DNA from: a virus | Reading direction: 5' to 3' (one strand) | DNA: 31,291 bases | IMG/VR virus record: IMGVR_UViG_3300001341_000009 | Location: 1 to 31,291 of that record | Shown: positions 103 to 26,831 of the stretch, one piece after another | Position numbering within the stretch: position 1 is the stretch's first letter | How the letters are laid out: each line of letters begins with the position of its first letter | The notes under the pieces: generated by a model | Told to the model about the DNA's origin: nothing | Databases searched by the model: none | Seen by the model: the letters and a program-made list of their open reading frames with translations, nothing else | Translations under genes and position numbers: made by a program

Positions 103-1065
103 CTAGGCAGTGACAGAAGCCGTCCGCAGGATCACCGTATCTTTTCTAGTCGTGACCAGTTCGGACATTTCCTGTAGTCGCTCTATGTCGGGTAGGGCAT
201 AGTGCTGACTTAAGGAAGCGTTGCTGTGACCCAGTAGCGCTCGGCGGTCCTCGTCAGGGACCCCAGCAGCACGCAAGCGCTGCGCGTAGGTGTGTCGGAG
301 GTTATGTATCCCCTTCCTCACAAGGGGGTCCTCCGGCAAACCTGCTAACTCCCAAGCCTTCCGCCACACAGCATTACAAGCCTTTACTTGGCTTCCGTAG
401 CTCTGCGCCCGGCGACTCGGGAACACATACTTGCTCTTGTTCCCACGCTGGTACGAGACTGCCCGTCGCGCGATCGAATTGCATATGACCGCTCGATCGT
501 GGCCGTTCTTCGTGTCGCTCAGGATGAATACGAACGACTCGAGTTCCGGCACCGGGCACATGTCGGACCATTTCAGGCCAAACAACTCCCCCTTCCTTAC
601 ACCTGTGTTGACGGCAAACAATGCCGCGCCCTGGGCCCACCAGTCAGGCAGATGCGTAAACAGCCGTATCTGCTCTGCCCAGGTGAGCGGGTACGCGACC
701 CGCTGTGCTCCCTTCACATGCCGAATCCTTGGCACTGACGGAATCCATCGCCAGTCCCGGCAAGATCGATTCAAGATCGTGGTGACGACAGTCAGCTCTT
801 TGTTGACCGTGCCCGCCATCACCGGTTTCTTGAATGCGCCCGTGCCGGCCATCCTGTCTCGCTTGTAAGCCTCGAGAGCGTCTTCGTCGACCTCACCGCA
901 CGGCAGATTCCCGATATACGGGATCAGGGCTTCAACGCAATAACGTTGTCGGTCTCGGTCTTTGCCGTCGAACTCTCTGAGGTATCGTGAAGCTGCTTCC
1001 TCAAATGTTCGATGCGCGTTTCGTTCGTAACGCTCCCAGAGTGGGTTTCCTCTTCTTCTTGGCAT
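103..1065 (-). CDS. int: Tyrosine recombinase integrase
   Basis: This 320-aa phage integrase catalyses site-specific recombination between attP and the tRNA-Glu attB. An N-terminal SAM-like core-binding domain (about residues 20-110) starts at TFEEAASRYL. The C-terminal catalytic domain shows the expected active-site set: R157 in NTGVRKGE, a probable beta-hairpin Lys (K186), H254 and R257 in HNLRHTY, H280 in LGHS, and the nucleophile Y289 in SQHYALPD. It is the last gene of the leftward operon and runs into attL, the usual arrangement. Its 5' end overlaps the upstream gene by about 140 bp, so the true start could lie slightly further in, but the N-terminus before TFEEAA is plausible. Confidence 0.96.
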   Translation of the reverse strand: MPRRRGNPLWERYERNAHRTFEEAASRYLREFDGKDRDRQRYCVEALIPYIGNLPCGEVDEDALEAYKRDRMAGTGAFKKPVMAGTVNKELTVVTTILNRSCRDWRWIPSVPRIRHVKGAQRVAYPLTWAEQIRLFTHLPDWWAQGAALFAVNTGVRKGELFGLKWSDMCPVPELESFVFILSDTKNGHDRAVICNSIARRAVSYQRGNKSKYVFPSRRAQSYGSQVKACNAVWRKAWELAGLPEDPLVRKGIHNLRHTYAQRLRAAGVPDEDRRALLGHSNASLSQHYALPDIERLQEMSELVTTRKDTVILRTASVTA

Positions 1066-18335: not shown

Positions 18336-18827
18336 ATGTCTACCCCGATTCAGTTTGGGGAGTTCGCCAAGAATGCGGAATCCACGCGACTGATCAAGCT
18401 CGAGTGGTTTGAGGTAATTGCCCGCTACTGGGAACGTGGCCGGCAGTACGGCGCAGACTCGTACGTGCGGCCGGTTCGACCGACCGGGTTTTCCTATCGC
18501 AGTACAGGGCAAGGACAGTCGGGTCACTGCGAGCCACATTGGCCGAGGGCTCGGGGAGAATCCGTAAAGGATGGCGATCTGACTTGGGTCGCGGAGCCGG
18601 CCGGTGCAAACGGGATTGACGCCATATCTGCGCCGCAGTTGACGCTCGCACCCGCAGGGTCACTGACCACAGGTGCGCCCAGCATTGCGGATGGCGACGC
18701 GACAGGTAGTCGTGTTGAGATTGTCCTCAATAGCGACGGCATTCCCGGCACCAAGTATCAAGGGAGACTCACAGTAGCGAGCGCCGGTCAGCTGCTAATA
18801 GGCCTGTTCACCGTGGACGTCAGATGA
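18336..18827 (+). CDS. Virion-associated protein with carbohydrate-binding-like segment
   Basis: 163 aa. RYWERGRQYGADSYVRPVRPTGFSY, then SVKDGDLTWVAEPAG is the W-x-G-x-Y-x-x-G-x-Y-V pattern of small binding modules found in phage fibres and decoration proteins. The C-terminal half is beta-rich. It overlaps the next gene by ATGA. Function inferred from position and composition. Confidence 0.7.
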   Translation: MSTPIQFGEFAKNAESTRLIKLEWFEVIARYWERGRQYGADSYVRPVRPTGFSYRSTGQGQSGHCEPHWPRARGESVKDGDLTWVAEPAGANGIDAISAPQLTLAPAGSLTTGAPSIADGDATGSRVEIVLNSDGIPGTKYQGRLTVASAGQLLIGLFTVDVR

Positions 18828-19402
18828 GAGTCCGCTTCAACATCAAGGCTGACTTCCGCGAGGCCGAGAGACTACTGAAAACGCTCGGCCCTGCTGCGAA
18901 GCGGGCAACCGCTCGAGCGATCAACAAGACGGCCAGGGCCGTCAAGGCTGAATCGGCACGGGAAATCCAGCAGAAGCGCAACCTGCGGATATCGAGGATC
19001 AAGCGGCAGCTGGGCCTATCCCGAGCCAGGTCAACGCGATTGATCGCCACGATCACAGCGAGCGGCAGGCCAATATCGATCCGTGAGTTCCGGGCCAACC
19101 AAACGCGCAAAGGCGTGACCGTGAAGATCGGCAAGTCGTCCCCGCGGATCGCGCTGCGCAAGTACGGCAACAAGTCATTCCGCAACCTCGGCTTTGCCAA
19201 GGGCAGCGTGTTCGTGCGGACCGGGAGCAAGCGGCTACCGATCGAGAAGTGGCCGCCCGTGCCGGGTTTCCCCAGCGTGTTCGTGCAGCGGCAGGTCCAG
19301 GCGGCCATGTTGAAGACTGCGCGCACCACATGGACCAAGCGGTTCAGAGAGGAGATCGGCTTCGAGCTGCGTAAGGCGGAGGCGAGGGCGCGAGCGTCTT
19401 GA
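18824..19402 (+). CDS. Minor tail protein Z-like
   Basis: 192 aa starting MRVRFNIKADFREAERLLKT. The segment RATARAINKTARAVKAESAREIQQK, followed by NLRISRIKRQLGLSRA, is typical of the prophage minor tail protein Z family (head-tail completion). The basic composition and AINKTA pattern fit. In lambda-like phages Z lies downstream of the head genes; here it is upstream of the terminase, which is atypical. Confidence 0.78.
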   Translation: MRVRFNIKADFREAERLLKTLGPAAKRATARAINKTARAVKAESAREIQQKRNLRISRIKRQLGLSRARSTRLIATITASGRPISIREFRANQTRKGVTVKIGKSSPRIALRKYGNKSFRNLGFAKGSVFVRTGSKRLPIEKWPPVPGFPSVFVQRQVQAAMLKTARTTWTKRFREEIGFELRKAEARARAS

Positions 19403-19688: not shown

Positions 19689-20183
19689 ATGGCCAAGAAA
19701 GCAACGCAGTTACTGACCGAGGTGTCGATCAGCCAGCTTTCTCGGGATACGGGGTTTCACAGGCAGACGATTCGCAAGGCGATCGCCGACGCCAAGGTCG
19801 AGCCGGCGAGGATGATCGGCGGCAACCCGCGGTACTTCCTCAAGGACCTGCTGCCGGTGTTGTACCAGGGGCAGGGAGGCCAAGGGGATCCAGACAAACT
19901 CAAGCCGTTCGAGCGGAAGGCGCACTACCAGGCAGAGCGGGAAAAGCTCAGTCTCCAGGTCGAGCGCGGCGAGCTGTTGTCGAGCATCGAGGTTGAACAG
20001 GAGCAGGGACGCATTCTCAAGATCGTCGCCCAAGGGCTCGACACACTACCCGACGTCCTCGAGCGGGATGTCGGGCTTTCGCCGCAGCAGGCCATGAAGG
20101 TCGAGGAACACGTCGACGAAATTCGCTCTGCGCTCTACGAAGAAATGATCGATGCTGATAGCGCCGCTCAAGCCAGCGCATGA
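19689..20183 (+). CDS. Terminase small subunit
   Basis: 164 aa. The N-terminal HTH (VSISQLSRDTGFHRQTIRKA) is followed by GNPRYFLKDLLPVLY and a coiled-coil region (HYQAEREKLSLQVERGELL, then VEQEQGRILKIV). This matches the Nu1/DUF1441-type small terminase subunit that recognises the pac/cos site. It overlaps the large subunit by 32 bases, the usual arrangement. The start ATG is the first methionine after AGGTC. Confidence 0.85.
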   Translation: MAKKATQLLTEVSISQLSRDTGFHRQTIRKAIADAKVEPARMIGGNPRYFLKDLLPVLYQGQGGQGDPDKLKPFERKAHYQAEREKLSLQVERGELLSSIEVEQEQGRILKIVAQGLDTLPDVLERDVGLSPQQAMKVEEHVDEIRSALYEEMIDADSAAQASA

Positions 20184-22260
20184 AGTAACTCTTTCGACTG
20201 CCGAAATCATCCGGCCGCCGCGGAGAACGCGGCCGACGGACGCGGTTCGCGAGGGTTTGAGGACGGAGAAGGGTCCGTGGAGCCCTGATCTGACACCGTA
20301 CTGCACCGAGCCCCTCGATCATCTGGCCGGCCGCCGGTATCAGGGGATCGTGTTCGTCGGTCCCGCGCGGACCGGCAAGACCATGAGCCTGATACTCGGC
20401 GGCGTGACGTACATCGCGACGTGCGCGCCCGGCGATACGCTCATCGTTCAAATGACGAAGGACGCGGCTCGCGATTTCTCGAGAATGGACCTGGACCGCG
20501 CCATTCGGCACAGCCCGGAACTGGAAAGCCGGATGAGCCCCCGAGCGCGGGACGACAACACATTCGACAAGTTTTTCCGCTCAGGGATCGCCCTGAAACT
20601 CGGTTGGCCGGCGGTCAGTCAGCTGTCGGCCAAGACCCTGCAGTACGTGCTGCTCACAGACTACGACCGGCCCGAAAACGTCAACAACGTTGACGGCGAA
20701 GGTCCCATGTGGGGGCAGGCGATCAAGCGCGTCGAAACGTACATGAGCCGGGGCAAGTGCCTTGCCGAAAGCTCGCCAGGTTTCGACCAGGTGGATCCAG
20801 AGTGGCGAGCGAGATTGCCTCACGAGGCGCCGCCCGTTCTTGGAATTTTGTCAATCTACAACGCTGGGACTCGGGCTCGGTGGTATTGGCGCTGTCAGCA
20901 CAAGGGGTGCGGACAGCATTTCGAAGCGAAACCGGGCCTCGACTGCTTCGCTATGCCCGAGTTCGACGAACTCACCGAGGCCGTAAAGCAGCACGACCTG
21001 ATGTCGCTCGCCACCGATTGGGCGAAGGTTGCGTGTCCTCACTGCGGCGGACTGCACACGCCCGAGCAACGTTCGGACATGAACCGCATGGTGACAAAGG
21101 GCGATCGCATCCTCGGGGCCACCTGGTTGCACGAAGGGGAACAGATTGTCGATTGCCGGACAGAGGGCGAGCGCCGGCGGACTCAGATCGCAAGCTACTG
21201 GCTTGGGGGTGTCGCGGCCGCGTACCAGGTATGGCCGAGCATCGTTCACGTATACCTGCAGGCGGTTCTGGCCTACGCGCAGACGGGCGACGAGGGCCCA
21301 CTACGCCGAACGACGAACACCGACCAGGGCGCACCGTACCTGCCGCGCTCGGTGACCAAGAAACGGAGCGCGGAGGACCTTGTGCAGCGAGTCGAGGATT
21401 GGCCGCGCGGCCTCATACCCCAGGGCGTCCGGTTTCTTACGGCTGCGATCGACGTCCAGTCCTACGGGTTCGTGGTCCACATCATGGGGTGGGGCATCGG
21501 GCTTGAGTCGTGGATTGTGGATCGATTCAAGATCACGGCCAGCAAGCGACCAGAGGGCGAGAGGTTTGCGACCATCGACCCGGCGTCATACGTCGAAGAC
21601 TGGGAAGTTCTAATCGAGGAGGTCGTAGAACGGACCTACGTGACCGCCGGCGGAACGGAGATGAAGCCCAGGATCACGCTGTGCGACTCCGGCGGCAAGG
21701 AAGGCGTTACCGAGAAGGCATACGAATTCTGGCGCTGGTGCAAACGCAGGGGCTTCCGCCACCGCTTCCGGTTGGTGAAGGGCACCGGGAACCTCAATGC
21801 ACCGCGCGTCAAGCAAACGTTCCCTGACGCGACGAATCGCAAGGATCGGAAGGCCGGCCGCGGCGACGTGCCGGTTTGGCTGCTCAACGTCAACGTCATT
21901 AAGGACGGCATCATTGGCGACCTTGCGAGGGCCGCCCCGGGGCCAGGTTACGTCCATATCGGCAAGTGGATCGACGATGGCTATTTCGAAGAGATGACCG
22001 TCGAGGTACGGACCCCAAAGGGTTGGGAGAACCCGAACAAGAAACCCAACGAGGCGCCGGATCTGCACACGTACAACAGGGCGGCTTGCATCATTTTGCG
22101 AGCCGAGCGGATCGATTGGGACAACCCGCCGTCATGGGCGGCAGAACCGGACGAGCAGGACGCTGTTGCGATGGCGGAGCCGCCGCAACGCGGACAAAAC
22201 CCGTCTTGGATGGACACGCCGTCGACGAGGACTCGGGGTCGGAAGAGGAGCTATTGGTGA
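20152..22260 (+). CDS. Terminase large subunit (GpA-type)
   Basis: 702 aa, the DNA-packaging ATPase/nuclease. The Walker A motif is GPARTGKT at residues 70-77, with a Walker B-like VLLTDYD (166-172). A zinc-binding insert has C248-x4-C253 and CPHC at 294-297, as in lambda gpA-type proteins. The nuclease-domain acidic sites AAIDVQ (431-436) and LCDSGG (510-515) are present. It is about 60 residues longer than lambda gpA. It is coupled to the next gene by GTGA. Confidence 0.95.
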   Translation: MLIAPLKPAHEVTLSTAEIIRPPRRTRPTDAVREGLRTEKGPWSPDLTPYCTEPLDHLAGRRYQGIVFVGPARTGKTMSLILGGVTYIATCAPGDTLIVQMTKDAARDFSRMDLDRAIRHSPELESRMSPRARDDNTFDKFFRSGIALKLGWPAVSQLSAKTLQYVLLTDYDRPENVNNVDGEGPMWGQAIKRVETYMSRGKCLAESSPGFDQVDPEWRARLPHEAPPVLGILSIYNAGTRARWYWRCQHKGCGQHFEAKPGLDCFAMPEFDELTEAVKQHDLMSLATDWAKVACPHCGGLHTPEQRSDMNRMVTKGDRILGATWLHEGEQIVDCRTEGERRRTQIASYWLGGVAAAYQVWPSIVHVYLQAVLAYAQTGDEGPLRRTTNTDQGAPYLPRSVTKKRSAEDLVQRVEDWPRGLIPQGVRFLTAAIDVQSYGFVVHIMGWGIGLESWIVDRFKITASKRPEGERFATIDPASYVEDWEVLIEEVVERTYVTAGGTEMKPRITLCDSGGKEGVTEKAYEFWRWCKRRGFRHRFRLVKGTGNLNAPRVKQTFPDATNRKDRKAGRGDVPVWLLNVNVIKDGIIGDLARAAPGPGYVHIGKWIDDGYFEEMTVEVRTPKGWENPNKKPNEAPDLHTYNRAACIILRAERIDWDNPPSWAAEPDEQDAVAMAEPPQRGQNPSWMDTPSTRTRGRKRSYW

Positions 22261-22463
22261 GCGTATACACGCAAGCGGATCTGGATGCCCTGGACAAGGC
22301 AATCGCGAACCAAACACTGACCGCGACAATATCGGGTCGATCTCGGACGTACCGTTCTCTGGAGGACTTGATAAAGGCCAGAGAGTTCGTTCGTAGGCAG
22401 CTAAGTGGCGCATCTGGTCGGTCGCGTCTGCTGTCTTGGTTCAGCAAGGGCGTACAGAATTGA
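22257..22463 (+). CDS. gpW-like head-tail joining protein
   Basis: 68 aa from a GTG with GGAAGAGGAG upstream. SVYTQADLDALDKAIANQTL, then RSRTYRSLEDLIKAREFVRR is the W-family signature (short, helix-strand-helix). In lambda, W lies between A and B exactly as here. It helps close the connector. Confidence 0.85.
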   Translation: MSVYTQADLDALDKAIANQTLTATISGRSRTYRSLEDLIKAREFVRRQLSGASGRSRLLSWFSKGVQN

Positions 22464-23899
22464 ACGTTCTCGATCGAGTTATCGAGTACGTCGCACCGCA
22501 GCGCGGCGCGAAGCGCTCGCAGGCGCGAGCGCGCATCAAGGCGCTCGAGCAGGCTATGGCCTTCTACGACGGTGCAGACCTTGGGCGCCGGGGCTCGAGT
22601 ATCAGGCGTTCTGCGGCTTCAGCTGAGACAGTATCGGCTCGCACGTTGCCGGCACTTCGAGCAGGCTCTCGCGATCTCGTTCGAAACAATCCGCACGCAA
22701 AGCGCGGCGTAGAGGCCATAGTCTCGAACGTCATCGGCACCGGCATTGTTCCAAGATTCAAACGCGGCAAGGAAACCGCGAAAGAGCTGCAGGAGTTGGC
22801 GAAGGACGTACTCGAGTCGCCGAAGATCGACTACTTCGGGCAGCTCAACTACGCAGGGCTACAGGGCCTCATCACGAATACAGTGGTTGAAAGCGGCGAA
22901 TGCCTGGTCGTTCGTCGCTTCAAGAGCGTCGGGTTCCCGCTGCGATTCCAGGTTCTCGAACCCGATTACCTCGATTCAACTCGCGACACAATACCGAGGT
23001 CCGACGGCAGTCGAATCAGCCAGGGTATCGAGTACGACGGCGATGGGCGAAGAGTCGCGTACTGGATCTATCCCGAGCATCCAGGCACCGGGCGCTCCGC
23101 GAGTGTCACGCGCTTTCAGAGCCAGCGTGTTCTCGCGGAGAACGTGGCACACATCTATCGCATCGATCGGCCCGGGCAGATCCGCGGGATACCGTGGCTG
23201 GCGCCCGTGATGCTCGGCCTGGCCGACTATGCGGATTACGAGCAGGCGCAACTGTTCCGGCAGAAGGTCGCGGCTTGTTTCGCGGTGTTCTATTCCGACG
23301 AGCTGGGCGGCGACGAGCTAAAGGTCGACGCACCGGAAAAAGTGGAACCCGGAATGATGATGCGGCTGAACCCGGGCTCCGAGGTCAGCTTCGCGTCGCC
23401 GCCACAAGTTACCGACTACAAGGATTTTGCGAAGACATCGTTGCGGTCGTTCGCGGCCGGGTTCGGTATCAGCTACGAAGCCCTGACCGGAGACCTCGAG
23501 GACGTCAACTTCTCGTCGGGGAAAATGGGCTGGATCGAATTCCAGCGCAATATCGATCGCTGGCGCTGGCTGACATTCATACCCCAGGGCTTCGGCGTGA
23601 TGATGCAGTGGTTCCTCGACGCGGCCGAACTCACGGGCGTCGACACGACTGATGTGCGCGTCAGACACAACCCGCCGTCACGGCAGATGATCTCACCCGA
23701 CCGCGAGGTGCCGGCCAAGGTCAAGCAGCTCGAGTCGGGCCAGAAGACGCTTACCCGAATGGTGGCAGAAGACCTCGGGCGCGACTTCGAGGAACACCTC
23801 GACGAACTTCAGGAGGAGCGGACCATGCTCGCGGAGCGTGGCATCGAACTCAGCTTCTCCTCCGATGATCCACCAAGAGAGGCGCAATTCGATGACTGA
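22460..23899 (+). CDS. Portal protein (lambda gpB-like)
   Basis: 479 aa from a TTG overlapping gpW's stop (alternative start TTG 22436). The region from about residue 60 contains LRAGSRDLVRNNPHAKRGVE, then VSNVIGTGIVPRFKRG, a strong match to lambda-family portals. Later come LEPDYLDSTRDT, GQIRGIPWLAPVMLGLADYA and FSSGKMGWIEFQRNI. The tail EHLDELQEERTMLAERGIEL is charged. It forms the dodecameric portal vertex through which DNA is packaged. The stop overlaps the protease-capsid start (ATGACTGA). Confidence 0.95.
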   Translation: MNVLDRVIEYVAPQRGAKRSQARARIKALEQAMAFYDGADLGRRGSSIRRSAASAETVSARTLPALRAGSRDLVRNNPHAKRGVEAIVSNVIGTGIVPRFKRGKETAKELQELAKDVLESPKIDYFGQLNYAGLQGLITNTVVESGECLVVRRFKSVGFPLRFQVLEPDYLDSTRDTIPRSDGSRISQGIEYDGDGRRVAYWIYPEHPGTGRSASVTRFQSQRVLAENVAHIYRIDRPGQIRGIPWLAPVMLGLADYADYEQAQLFRQKVAACFAVFYSDELGGDELKVDAPEKVEPGMMMRLNPGSEVSFASPPQVTDYKDFAKTSLRSFAAGFGISYEALTGDLEDVNFSSGKMGWIEFQRNIDRWRWLTFIPQGFGVMMQWFLDAAELTGVDTTDVRVRHNPPSRQMISPDREVPAKVKQLESGQKTLTRMVAEDLGRDFEEHLDELQEERTMLAERGIELSFSSDDPPREAQFDD

Positions 23900-26426
23900 T
23901 TTTGTCGGCGCGAAGGCGATTGCCGGTGCACTGTCCCGAATTATTGGCAAGCCGGTTTCACAGTGGCAGGTATACCGGCTCGCCAATCGTCGGACGAGTC
24001 CGATCCGCAGACACTGCGAAGGCTGGGGCTTGGTGGCGGCCGAGCCAGAACTGCAGACCTGGTGGGATACGTCCGCTTTTGCGCCAATCTTCGCCAAACG
24101 TCTCGACCGAAAGGCCGCGAAGTCGCAGGCTGAAAACACACTGCAGCTCTTTGGAGTTATCGGCGAGGGAGGTCTGACCGATGAGGCGGTACTGAATCGC
24201 ATCGACACTTTCCAGGATGCCAAGACCATTCGGGTGGTCGTCAACAGCCTCGGCGGCCACGTCGCACATGGCCTGACGATGTACCACGCACTGCGATCGC
24301 ACAGCGCGAAGGTCGAGGTCGAGATTACCGGTGTGGCGGCGTCAATGGCTTCGTGCATCGCGATGGCGGGCGACAAGGTGAGTATGGCCGAGGACGCACT
24401 GTTCATGCTTCACGACCCCTGGGTAGGCACGGAAGGCAATGCGGACCAGCTCCGAGCAGCCGCAGACATGCTGGAGAAACATGGCGAGAGCCTCGCCGGC
24501 ATCTACTCAAGAAAGTCCGGAATCCCCGAGGATGAGATCCGGACGATGATGAGCAGGGACGGCGGTGAGGGCACGTATCTGAATGCACGGGAAGCGCTTA
24601 ACGCGGGGTTCATTGACGAGGTTCTGTCTCCCGCAAACGCAGAACTTCCCAACCTGCCGGCCGCTGCGTTGGCGAAACGAATCGTTAAAGGCCACCGGAA
24701 GAAAAAGTCTGGTCGCCGGAAATCAGGAGAGCGAAAGATGAAACTGAAGCACCTTGCCGCGGCGCTCATGGCCGCCGTTCGCGCGATGGTAGACGACGAC
24801 ACTTCCGAGAAGGACGTTCTCCAGGAGGTCGCCGACGCAACCAAAACCGACCCGGACGAGTTGACTGCGCTTGCCGGTGGCGAGGGCGACGCGCCCGATA
24901 GCGAGCAGCTGCAGGCACTCGCCGAAGTTCTCGACATTGACGTCGATTCTCTGATTGACGCCGCAAAGAAAGACGGCGTGACAATCGAGAAGCCGAGCAA
25001 TCCCGGCCCTGCGCGTAGGCGCTCCACAAGCGCGGCCGCGAACGGCGACGTGGCGAAGGCAGTCAGTGAAGCGCTGGCGGCTCAGGCGAAAGCGCGGCGT
25101 CAGATCAAGGCTCGCGCGAAGAAACTCGGCATTCCCGATAGCGTTGTCGCTGAGATTTCCGAGGAAAGCGTGGACGTCGATGACGCAAACGCCCGCATGA
25201 TTAGCTGGCTCTCGGATCCGAAGAACCAGCCGCAGGTCAGCGGCATAAACGGTAGCGTGACGATCGGCGCCGATGATCGCGACAAGTGGCTCGACGGCAT
25301 GGCGCAGTGGCTCATCATCAAGGCGGGTCAGCGCCGCATGGTGGAATCGCACCTCAAGACCGTCGAGAACACAGCGGTACGGCTCGATCCCGGCAATTTC
25401 CGCGGTCTCCGGCTAATCGACATCGCCCGCGACGTGCTTGAGCGCGAAGGAATGAGCTGCCGCGGAATGTCGCCCTACGAAATCGCGAAACGCGCGCTGG
25501 CGCCGCGTGCAGAGGCCGGTTTGGGCACCCGAAGCGACTTCCCGATTCTGCTGGAGAACGTTCTGCATAAGATGTTGCAGGCGGCCTACGAGACCGCACC
25601 GGATCAGTGGCGTGCGATCGCGACAACCGGTTCCGTGCAGGATTTCCGGGCGCATCCGAGGCTGCGTCTCGGCCAGCTGGCTCGTCTGGATAAGCTGCTC
25701 GAGACCGGCGAGTTCAAGAGCCTCCACTTCCCCGATGCGGAGAAAGAGAGCATCCAGGCGGGAACCTTCGGTAACGTCATCGGCCTGACCCGGCCGGCGA
25801 TCGTCAACGATGACGTGGACGGATTCAGCAGGCTTACCGTGATGCTCGGCCGCGCCGCTGCGAGGTCCATCGAAATCGACGTGTTCGCTCTCTTTGGCGC
25901 CGATGGACTCGGCCCGACCATGAGCGACGGCAACCGTCTCTTCGATGCGACCCACAACAACATTGTCACGCCGGCGGCCGGTCCCACCGTTACGAGTCTC
26001 GAGGCCGGTCGCGTGTCGATGGCACAGCAGAGGGATCCGAACGACCAGGACTTTCTGAACCTCCGCCCGGATGTTTGGGTGGGCCCCATCGGCCTGGGTG
26101 CCGCGGCCAGGACGGTCATCAACTCTGAATTCGACTTCGACGCCGAGACCGCCGGCGGCTCTGGCAAGTTCATGAAGCCGAACACGGTTCGCGACCTCTG
26201 CAGCGTTGTCGTAGACACTCCGCGCCTCACCGGCACTCGCCATTACTTGTTCGCAGATCCGGCCATAGCGCCGGTATTCGAGGTTGTATTCCTCGAAGGC
26301 GAAGAGTCGCCGGTCATCGAAGCGGAAGAAGGCTTCGACTTCGATGGGGTTCGCTGGCGGGTTCGGCACGACTATGGCGTCGGCGCTACCGACCACCGCG
26401 GAGCAAACACAAACGCCGGCGCTTGA
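23892..26426 (+). CDS. wHTH / ClpP-like protease / major capsid fusion
   Basis: 844 aa in one frame. Residues 1-60 (AKAIAGALSRIIGKPVSQWQ, then VYRLANRR) look like a small winged HTH similar to those of small terminases. Residues 85-250 are a ClpP-like prohead protease: NSLGGHV (118-124), S151 in GVAASMAS, H174 in MLHDPW, and probable D223. A basic linker (GHRKKKSGRRKSGERK) leads to an acidic scaffold-like region, then the major capsid from about 420 (DFRAHPRLRLGQLARLDKLL, SIEIDVFALF), of the Mu gpT-like type. Protease-capsid fusions are known; the HTH addition is less usual. A strong internal start at residue 283 could also yield a separate scaffold-capsid product. Confidence 0.9.
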   Translation: MTDFVGAKAIAGALSRIIGKPVSQWQVYRLANRRTSPIRRHCEGWGLVAAEPELQTWWDTSAFAPIFAKRLDRKAAKSQAENTLQLFGVIGEGGLTDEAVLNRIDTFQDAKTIRVVVNSLGGHVAHGLTMYHALRSHSAKVEVEITGVAASMASCIAMAGDKVSMAEDALFMLHDPWVGTEGNADQLRAAADMLEKHGESLAGIYSRKSGIPEDEIRTMMSRDGGEGTYLNAREALNAGFIDEVLSPANAELPNLPAAALAKRIVKGHRKKKSGRRKSGERKMKLKHLAAALMAAVRAMVDDDTSEKDVLQEVADATKTDPDELTALAGGEGDAPDSEQLQALAEVLDIDVDSLIDAAKKDGVTIEKPSNPGPARRRSTSAAANGDVAKAVSEALAAQAKARRQIKARAKKLGIPDSVVAEISEESVDVDDANARMISWLSDPKNQPQVSGINGSVTIGADDRDKWLDGMAQWLIIKAGQRRMVESHLKTVENTAVRLDPGNFRGLRLIDIARDVLEREGMSCRGMSPYEIAKRALAPRAEAGLGTRSDFPILLENVLHKMLQAAYETAPDQWRAIATTGSVQDFRAHPRLRLGQLARLDKLLETGEFKSLHFPDAEKESIQAGTFGNVIGLTRPAIVNDDVDGFSRLTVMLGRAAARSIEIDVFALFGADGLGPTMSDGNRLFDATHNNIVTPAAGPTVTSLEAGRVSMAQQRDPNDQDFLNLRPDVWVGPIGLGAAARTVINSEFDFDAETAGGSGKFMKPNTVRDLCSVVVDTPRLTGTRHYLFADPAIAPVFEVVFLEGEESPVIEAEEGFDFDGVRWRVRHDYGVGATDHRGANTNAGA
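24725..24740 (+). promoter_or_regulatory. Internal ribosome site and start in the capsid polyprotein
   Basis: AGGAGA (24725-24730), an 8-base gap after AGGAG, then ATG (24738-24740), in frame with the polyprotein (Met283). The shorter product would be 562 aa and begin MKLKHLAAALMAAVRAM just after the basic linker. It is placed where the protease ends, like lambda C/Nu3 nested starts. Confidence 0.7.
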
Positions 26427-26468: not shown

Positions 26469-26831
26469 ATGTCAGGTACTTTCGTTCAGCCAGGTCAGGT
26501 CCTGGAGCACGCCAACTCGTCGGGAGCGGCGATCAGCGCCGGTTCACCGGTTGTCATGGGCGACCTGGTGGGCATTGCCCTGGTCGACATTCCGGACGGC
26601 GAAAGTGGCTCTGTGTCGATTACCGGCGTCCACAAGGTCCCCAAGGTCGCTGGCGTGGCTTGGGCGCAGGGCGAGAAGGTTGACTGGGATGCTTCCGCGC
26701 CCGGGTTCACGACAGGCATTACGCCGGCGGCCGGCGACGTTGAGTCCGCGGGCGTCGCAGCTCGAGCGGCCCTCACTGCCGATACGGAAGCTGAGTTGCT
26801 GCTGCTGCCCGGTATCGGCACCGGCTCGTGA
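26469..26831 (+). CDS. Capsid decoration protein (DUF2190-type)
   Basis: 120 aa with GAGGAAAC upstream. The beginning TFVQPGQVLEHANSSGAAIS, then AGSPVVMGDLVGIALVDIPD, and GSVSITGVHKVPK is the classic DUF2190 pattern (small beta protein on the capsid). It is situated directly after the capsid gene. It ends in a GTGA overlap with the following small gene. Confidence 0.88.
   Translation: MSGTFVQPGQVLEHANSSGAAISAGSPVVMGDLVGIALVDIPDGESGSVSITGVHKVPKVAGVAWAQGEKVDWDASAPGFTTGITPAAGDVESAGVAARAALTADTEAELLLLPGIGTGS

Follow-up and report, generated by a model that had tools for sequence, protein, structure and literature searches.

A winged-helix, ClpP-like protease and capsid fusion gene with a candidate nested start in an IMG/VR virus

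One frame from winged helix to capsid

The window considered here is a virus record analysed whole (IMG/VR record IMGVR_UViG_3300001341_000009, positions 1 to 31,291; 31,291 bases). On its plus strand, a single open frame joins a small winged helix-turn-helix (wHTH), a ClpP-like protease, a scaffold-like region and the major capsid domain, and both the frame and the domains agree with the first-pass annotation of this DNA. Directly behind the protease lies an in-frame ATG preceded by a Shine-Dalgarno (SD) sequence. Comparable starts recur in related protease-capsid fusions, where they would give rise to a second product lacking the protease. The wHTH is shared with three further IMG/VR contigs, L002, L004 and L005. 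The parts of the gene are as follows (aa, amino acids; pLDDT, predicted local distance difference test).

23892..26426, plus strand: wHTH-ClpP-scaffold-capsid fusion gene, single open frame of 844 aa, above the cut-off of NF045540
23892..24077, plus strand: N-terminal wHTH, residues 1-62, kept in L002, L004 and L005; fold model with pLDDT 81.5
24078..24137, plus strand: linker helix between wHTH and protease (helix 63-77 in the model), the site of the GIY-YIG insert in L004
24138..24632, plus strand: ClpP-like protease domain, residues 83-247 (PF00574; NF045542, 162 bits against a cut-off of 120)
24342..24344, plus strand: catalytic Ser151, S in 29/29 aligned ClpP-type fusions
24411..24413, plus strand: catalytic His174, H in 29/29 aligned ClpP-type fusions
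24558..24560, plus strand: Asp223, putative third member of the catalytic triad; its alignment column has E 22, G 3, D 2, N 2 (n=29)
24725..24729, plus strand: SD sequence AGGAG, 8 nt upstream of the internal, in-frame ATG (24738)
24738..26426, plus strand: predicted nested scaffold-capsid product, 562 aa, from the internal ATG
24747..24971, plus strand: XRE-like HTH segment, residues 286-360, directly 3' of the internal start (predicted fold)
24987..25271, plus strand: scaffold-like region, poorly conserved, residues 366-460
25518..26408, plus strand: HK97-type major capsid domain, residues 543-839, C-terminal (PF25209, Phage_capsid_4, 3.5e-43)

The whole protein passes the curated cut-off of the NCBIfam model for ClpP-like prohead protease/major capsid fusions (NF045540; 498.8 against 475 bits), and therefore the fusion itself is, by profile score, of an already known kind. 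This bears out the earlier remark that such fusions are known, gp5 of phage MD8 and Gifsy-2 being members. Within the protease, the Pfam CLP_protease match extends over residues 104-246 (1.9e-29). The first-pass annotation had suggested a catalytic triad of S151, H174 and D223. The serine and the histidine are invariant and stand, whereas the aspartate stands only in part: its column is asparagine in L002 and L004 and usually glutamate, so D223 is a plausible rather than a secured third residue. Capsid fusions with a non-ClpP protease (identified by eye) were also seen at L087, L088, L091-L094, L096, L099 and L106, most of them with a YRAxxWxPxE-like motif 3' of the protease.

A candidate start site behind the protease

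The AGGAG and its distance to the ATG at 24738, noted in the first reading of the window, are correct as to coordinates. Equivalent starts are found at 4874 in L002, 5159 in L004, 4880 in L005 and 4132 in L001. The predicted SD duplex is stronger at the internal than at the first start in L002, L004 and L005, and equal at the two sites in the window (-7.4 and -7.6). RNA folding around the internal start was unremarkable in 4/4 cases.

Across the fusion family, a candidate nested start was defined as any ATG or GTG that is in frame, has an SD tetramer in front of it and lies at most 75 codons 3' of the protease, and expectations were obtained from sliding windows. The rule was set after the first cases had been seen; the discovery set is exploratory, and the rule was then fixed for held-out isolate phages. 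Of 28 fused frames flagged in IMG/VR, 22 were used, including the window, which replaces L003; the near copies L033, L034, L036, L038 and L045 and the duplicate L082 were left out. Clustering at 70% identity gave 16 discovery clusters. For L061, the start was set by hand and the junction is doubtful. The held-out phages comprised 21 records, 19 with a usable fused frame (L101 is split and L102 short). After removal of L086, L095 and L090, each at least 70% identical to another frame, 16 clusters remained, several of which have an HK97-type and not a ClpP-type protease (judged by eye from the anchor motif).

Every discovery cluster has a site that fits this definition (16/16, against 2.6 expected), and so do half of the held-out clusters (8/16, against 1.6 expected). 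Counted by start codon, an SD sequence is present at 21/51 starts in the discovery junctions versus 28/557 elsewhere (Fisher 2.7e-12), and at 8/43 versus 18/471 in the held-out phages (Fisher 6e-4). Composition does not explain this signal: among the codons of the junction, starts have an SD sequence in front of them more often than the rest do, both in the discovery set (21/51 versus 106/1149) and in the held-out set (8/43 versus 63/1157). In-frame starts also differ from out-of-frame starts in the discovery set (p = 0.009). A Poisson-binomial value of 0.0 for the discovery set is artefactual, caused by genes whose expectation is zero, and was not used. In Faecalibacterium phage FP_Epona, protease and scaffold-capsid are two separate genes, the second of which encodes 530 aa and begins behind AGGAGG. 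Judged from sequence, a nested internal start is a recurring feature of the protease-capsid fusion family, a point missed in the first reading of the window, and the earlier suggestion of a protease-less second product would extend beyond the window. Among the papers listed in literature searches, none deals, by title or start of abstract, with a nested start in fusions of this kind or with an HTH fused to one of them.

Predicted helix-turn-helix folds at two positions

Residues 1-75 of the window protein have no Pfam or PHROG match. Among the relatives in the viral contig scan (80 of 131 kept), the three IMG/VR contigs can be aligned from the first residue on, L002 at 57%, L004 at 55% and L005 at 42% (best segment). 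In the wHTH alignment of the four contigs, 23 of 63 columns are invariant, and the ratio of nonsynonymous to synonymous change (pN/pS) for L002-L005 is 0.27, as constrained as the protease (0.35). The start of the gene is conserved as well, since it sits inside the portal stop in 4/4 contigs (ATGACTGA in the window, an overlap of 8 nt; GTGACTGA, ATGAGTGA and ATGAGTGA in the others). A structure prediction of the N-terminal segment, proposed in advance as a check, gave an HTH fold: the model built from the four homologues runs strand-helix-helix-wing-helix-helix (pLDDT 81.5). A wHTH in front of the protease is, on this model, real and recurs in a small clade. IMG/VR viral contig scans, in one of which 80 of 131 relatives were kept, gave only L002, L004 and L005 as further members. 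Genome contig scans yielded no relative, plasmids none and the A7 scan nothing; among named phages, the window N-terminus had no match and the L005 N-terminus only matches at E = 1, to nine mycobacteriophage records.

The segment had been called terminase-like. Of 379 chains aligned to the model with VIA, lambda gpNu1 (1j9i) ranks first (Z 6.4, 66 residues aligned), followed by BldC (5.6), three phage packaging-motor chains, RacA and Xis-type chains (Z 5.6 to 4.4). Against a specific terminase assignment, the top Z lies under the tool's caution level of 8 with BldC and Xis tied or close, and Foldseek E values are poor (0.98 for the best packaging-motor chain, 5.4 for gpNu1). For these reasons only the general type can be assigned, and a Nu1/Xis/MerR-type winged helix whose identity as a small terminase is not proven is a fair statement of what the model indicates. 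The earlier description is supported as regards a winged fold of the small-terminase type, with gpNu1 as best chain and four contigs sharing it, and is tentative as regards a specific terminase identity. Binding to packaging-site DNA does not follow from this fold, which Xis, BldC, RacA and MerR proteins use as well; that the wHTH binds DNA during assembly can be put forward only tentatively, as somewhat less likely than not.

Earlier reading had missed a second HTH-like domain, which the predicted models place at the internal start. The nested product would begin with an XRE-like fold because the model of 120 residues from the internal Met of the window (pLDDT 77.6) matches XRE proteins in Foldseek with probability 1.00 (5woq, 3f52) and, in VIA, CapH (7t5u; Z 8.3) and P22 c2 (7.7). 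In the predicted model, residues 286-360 form the five-helix XRE fold. It counts against this assignment that the VIA Z values are mostly below 8. Just behind the internal start, Pfam HTH_31 (PF13560) is reached below threshold in L002, L004 and L005 (16-19.5 bits, gathering threshold 27), and the window protein has no match to it at E 0.1. A profile search for the XRE segment over 107 sequences returned the four members of the clade, with their duplicate loci, and no others.

By sequence identity, each end of the polyprotein has a history independent of its middle, through exchange or divergence. Between L005 and L002, identity is 74% in the wHTH, 75% in the protease and 81% in the XRE-like segment, but only 38% in the capsid domain. 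Along L005:4001-6496, the capsid domain is exchanged (38-40% identity) and the wHTH, protease and XRE-like segment stay near those of L002. Between L004 and L002, the protease is 80% and the XRE-like segment 85% identical, but the wHTH only 44%, which points to an exchanged or fast-evolving wHTH end. L004 (4001-6820) also contains an in-frame GIY-YIG domain between wHTH and protease (MUG113 1.5e-8, T5orf172 4e-7); standalone GIY-YIG proteins of three phages have only the GIY-YIG part in common with it and are without the wHTH. At two sister loci that lack the wHTH, the gap between the portal and protease-capsid genes contains a small Cys-rich gene of its own (L001:3160-3438, L019:3655-3906), the product being zinc-ribbon-like below cut-off in L019 and without Pfam match in L001. 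The marine phages L093, L095, L099 and L106 have small genes in the same gap, several on the opposite strand, as if it were an insertion spot.

The fusion gene lies downstream of the terminase large subunit and portal genes and upstream of a cement protein gene:

19689..20183, plus strand: terminase small subunit (DUF1441), a gene of its own (phrog_141, 1.7e-40)
20152..22260, plus strand: terminase large subunit (PF20454, PF05876)
22436..23899, plus strand: portal gene (PF05136, 3.7e-99); the TTG start is the first in frame, mechanically assigned
26469..26831, plus strand: head decoration (cement) protein (PF09956, 2.3e-23)

A gene for a gpZ-like/neck protein is located upstream of the terminase genes (18824-19402), whereas its usual place is after the capsid gene. 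The virus is probably temperate, as the window contains a phage integrase gene (103-1065, minus strand; PF00589, 4e-17).

Two proposed chains from one gene and their known counterparts

Protease-capsid fusions pose a problem of stoichiometry, as a protease would come with each subunit of the shell. A simple and testable answer would be a nested start that recurs across the family. It is probable, in our judgement, that the gene is a ClpP-like protease/capsid fusion of the Gifsy-2/MD8 type which expresses two nested products. Translation from 23892, at the portal stop, would give the full-length chain in minor amount (wHTH, protease, XRE-like segment, scaffold and capsid), and translation from the internal ribosome-binding site and the ATG at 24738 an abundant chain without the protease (XRE-like segment, scaffold and capsid). 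Because the two would co-assemble through their capsid domains, only some subunits would bring protease into the procapsid, while the abundant short chain would build the shell. The protease would then trim away all parts in front of the capsid domain, which would remain in its mature form. In this reading, the wHTH, as part of the long chain only, would most likely tether the chains with a protease to DNA or to the vertex of portal and terminase, and would then be cleaved off; it may also be a protein contact or a passenger. By analogy, the most economical mechanism would be the lambda C/Nu3 scheme carried over to a gene that also contains the capsid.

The gene might instead encode a single polyprotein: translation would yield the full-length chain alone, the capsid domain would be released by the protease, and the SD-like site would have arisen as a by-product of the charged linker there. 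Several observations weigh in this direction and against a nested start: half of the held-out clusters (8/16) miss the fixed rule, and the comparison of in-frame with out-of-frame starts is not significant there (p = 0.11). In the window, the internal SD taken alone is not significant in a synonymous shuffle (p = 0.20), 15/122 other windows of the gene equal it in strength, and the internal site is the second best in the gene; over 22 open reading frames, per-gene shuffle values range from p = 0.028 to 0.912. Synonymous-codon shuffling gave no significance for the window and was set aside as a test of the internal site, the SD sequence being dictated by the residues encoded there. Several of the held-out clusters that miss the rule have a weaker site at the same position. 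A by-product of the linker is, moreover, hard to reconcile with junction start codons carrying SD sequences far more often than other codons in both sets, and with a related phage, FP_Epona, in which the gene is split at this point with a strong ribosome-binding site. A single polyprotein is unlikely.

Two other explanations concern the HTH folds. The wHTH may be a passenger, a small DNA-binding or GIY-YIG-associated gene fused in frame between portal and protease, with no role in assembly or with one as a late-gene regulator after cleavage. The wHTH and GIY-YIG domains of L004 at the portal-protease junction, the low identity of its wHTH beside that of its protease and the small separate Cys-rich genes kept at the same place in L001 and L019 would all fit a passenger; the constraint on the wHTH, similar to that on the protease, and the identical start and portal overlap in the four contigs would not, and this origin is somewhat doubtful. 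Alternatively, the wHTH and XRE-like folds may serve as protein-protein parts, in scaffold oligomerisation, portal contact or protease timing, and bind no DNA. Both are located in parts used by scaffold proteins, and the XRE-like part would belong to the long and the short chain alike and stays with the protease where the L005 capsid domain is exchanged. The fold neighbours of both segments are, however, mainly DNA-binding proteins, and this explanation falls a little short of an even chance. If the folds do function as DNA-binding types on a capsid precursor, genome recognition would be linked to shell assembly. The strongest form of this idea, a procapsid nucleated on or docked to packaging-site DNA by the wHTH on the long chain and the XRE HTH on every chain, is quite improbable on present models; if true, head assembly and protease delivery would be coupled to genome recognition, with dosage set by the nested internal start.

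The reading with two nested products can be set beside known systems. The NF045540/phrog_133 fusion family likewise has a single frame for protease, scaffold-like region and capsid, but its model begins at the protease and leaves the window wHTH outside. Gifsy-2 is a Salmonella phage whose gene is called a tripartite capsid gene in the title of a 2010 paper by Effantin. It resembles the window in having protease, centre and capsid in one gene and a nested SD-ATG candidate (L026 cluster); the clade profiles found neither the wHTH nor the XRE-like segment in it. In Pseudomonas phage MD8, a single gene, gp5, covers protease, scaffold and capsid (PMC8508860), but it starts at the protease where the fusion gene of the window starts at the wHTH, and section 2.5 of that paper names no internal start. 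The predicted wHTH fold aligns best, though not decisively, with lambda gpNu1 (66 residues aligned of a 68-residue chain), at 14% identity, but the window wHTH is inside a capsid polyprotein, in a virus with its own small terminase gene. In lambda C/Nu3, an in-frame internal start yields a protease-less scaffold product. The fusion gene of the window resembles it in having a candidate start of this kind, with a ribosome-binding site, after the protease domain, as read from the sequence and the family statistics; the nested product of the window would also hold the capsid, whereas lambda has a separate capsid gene.

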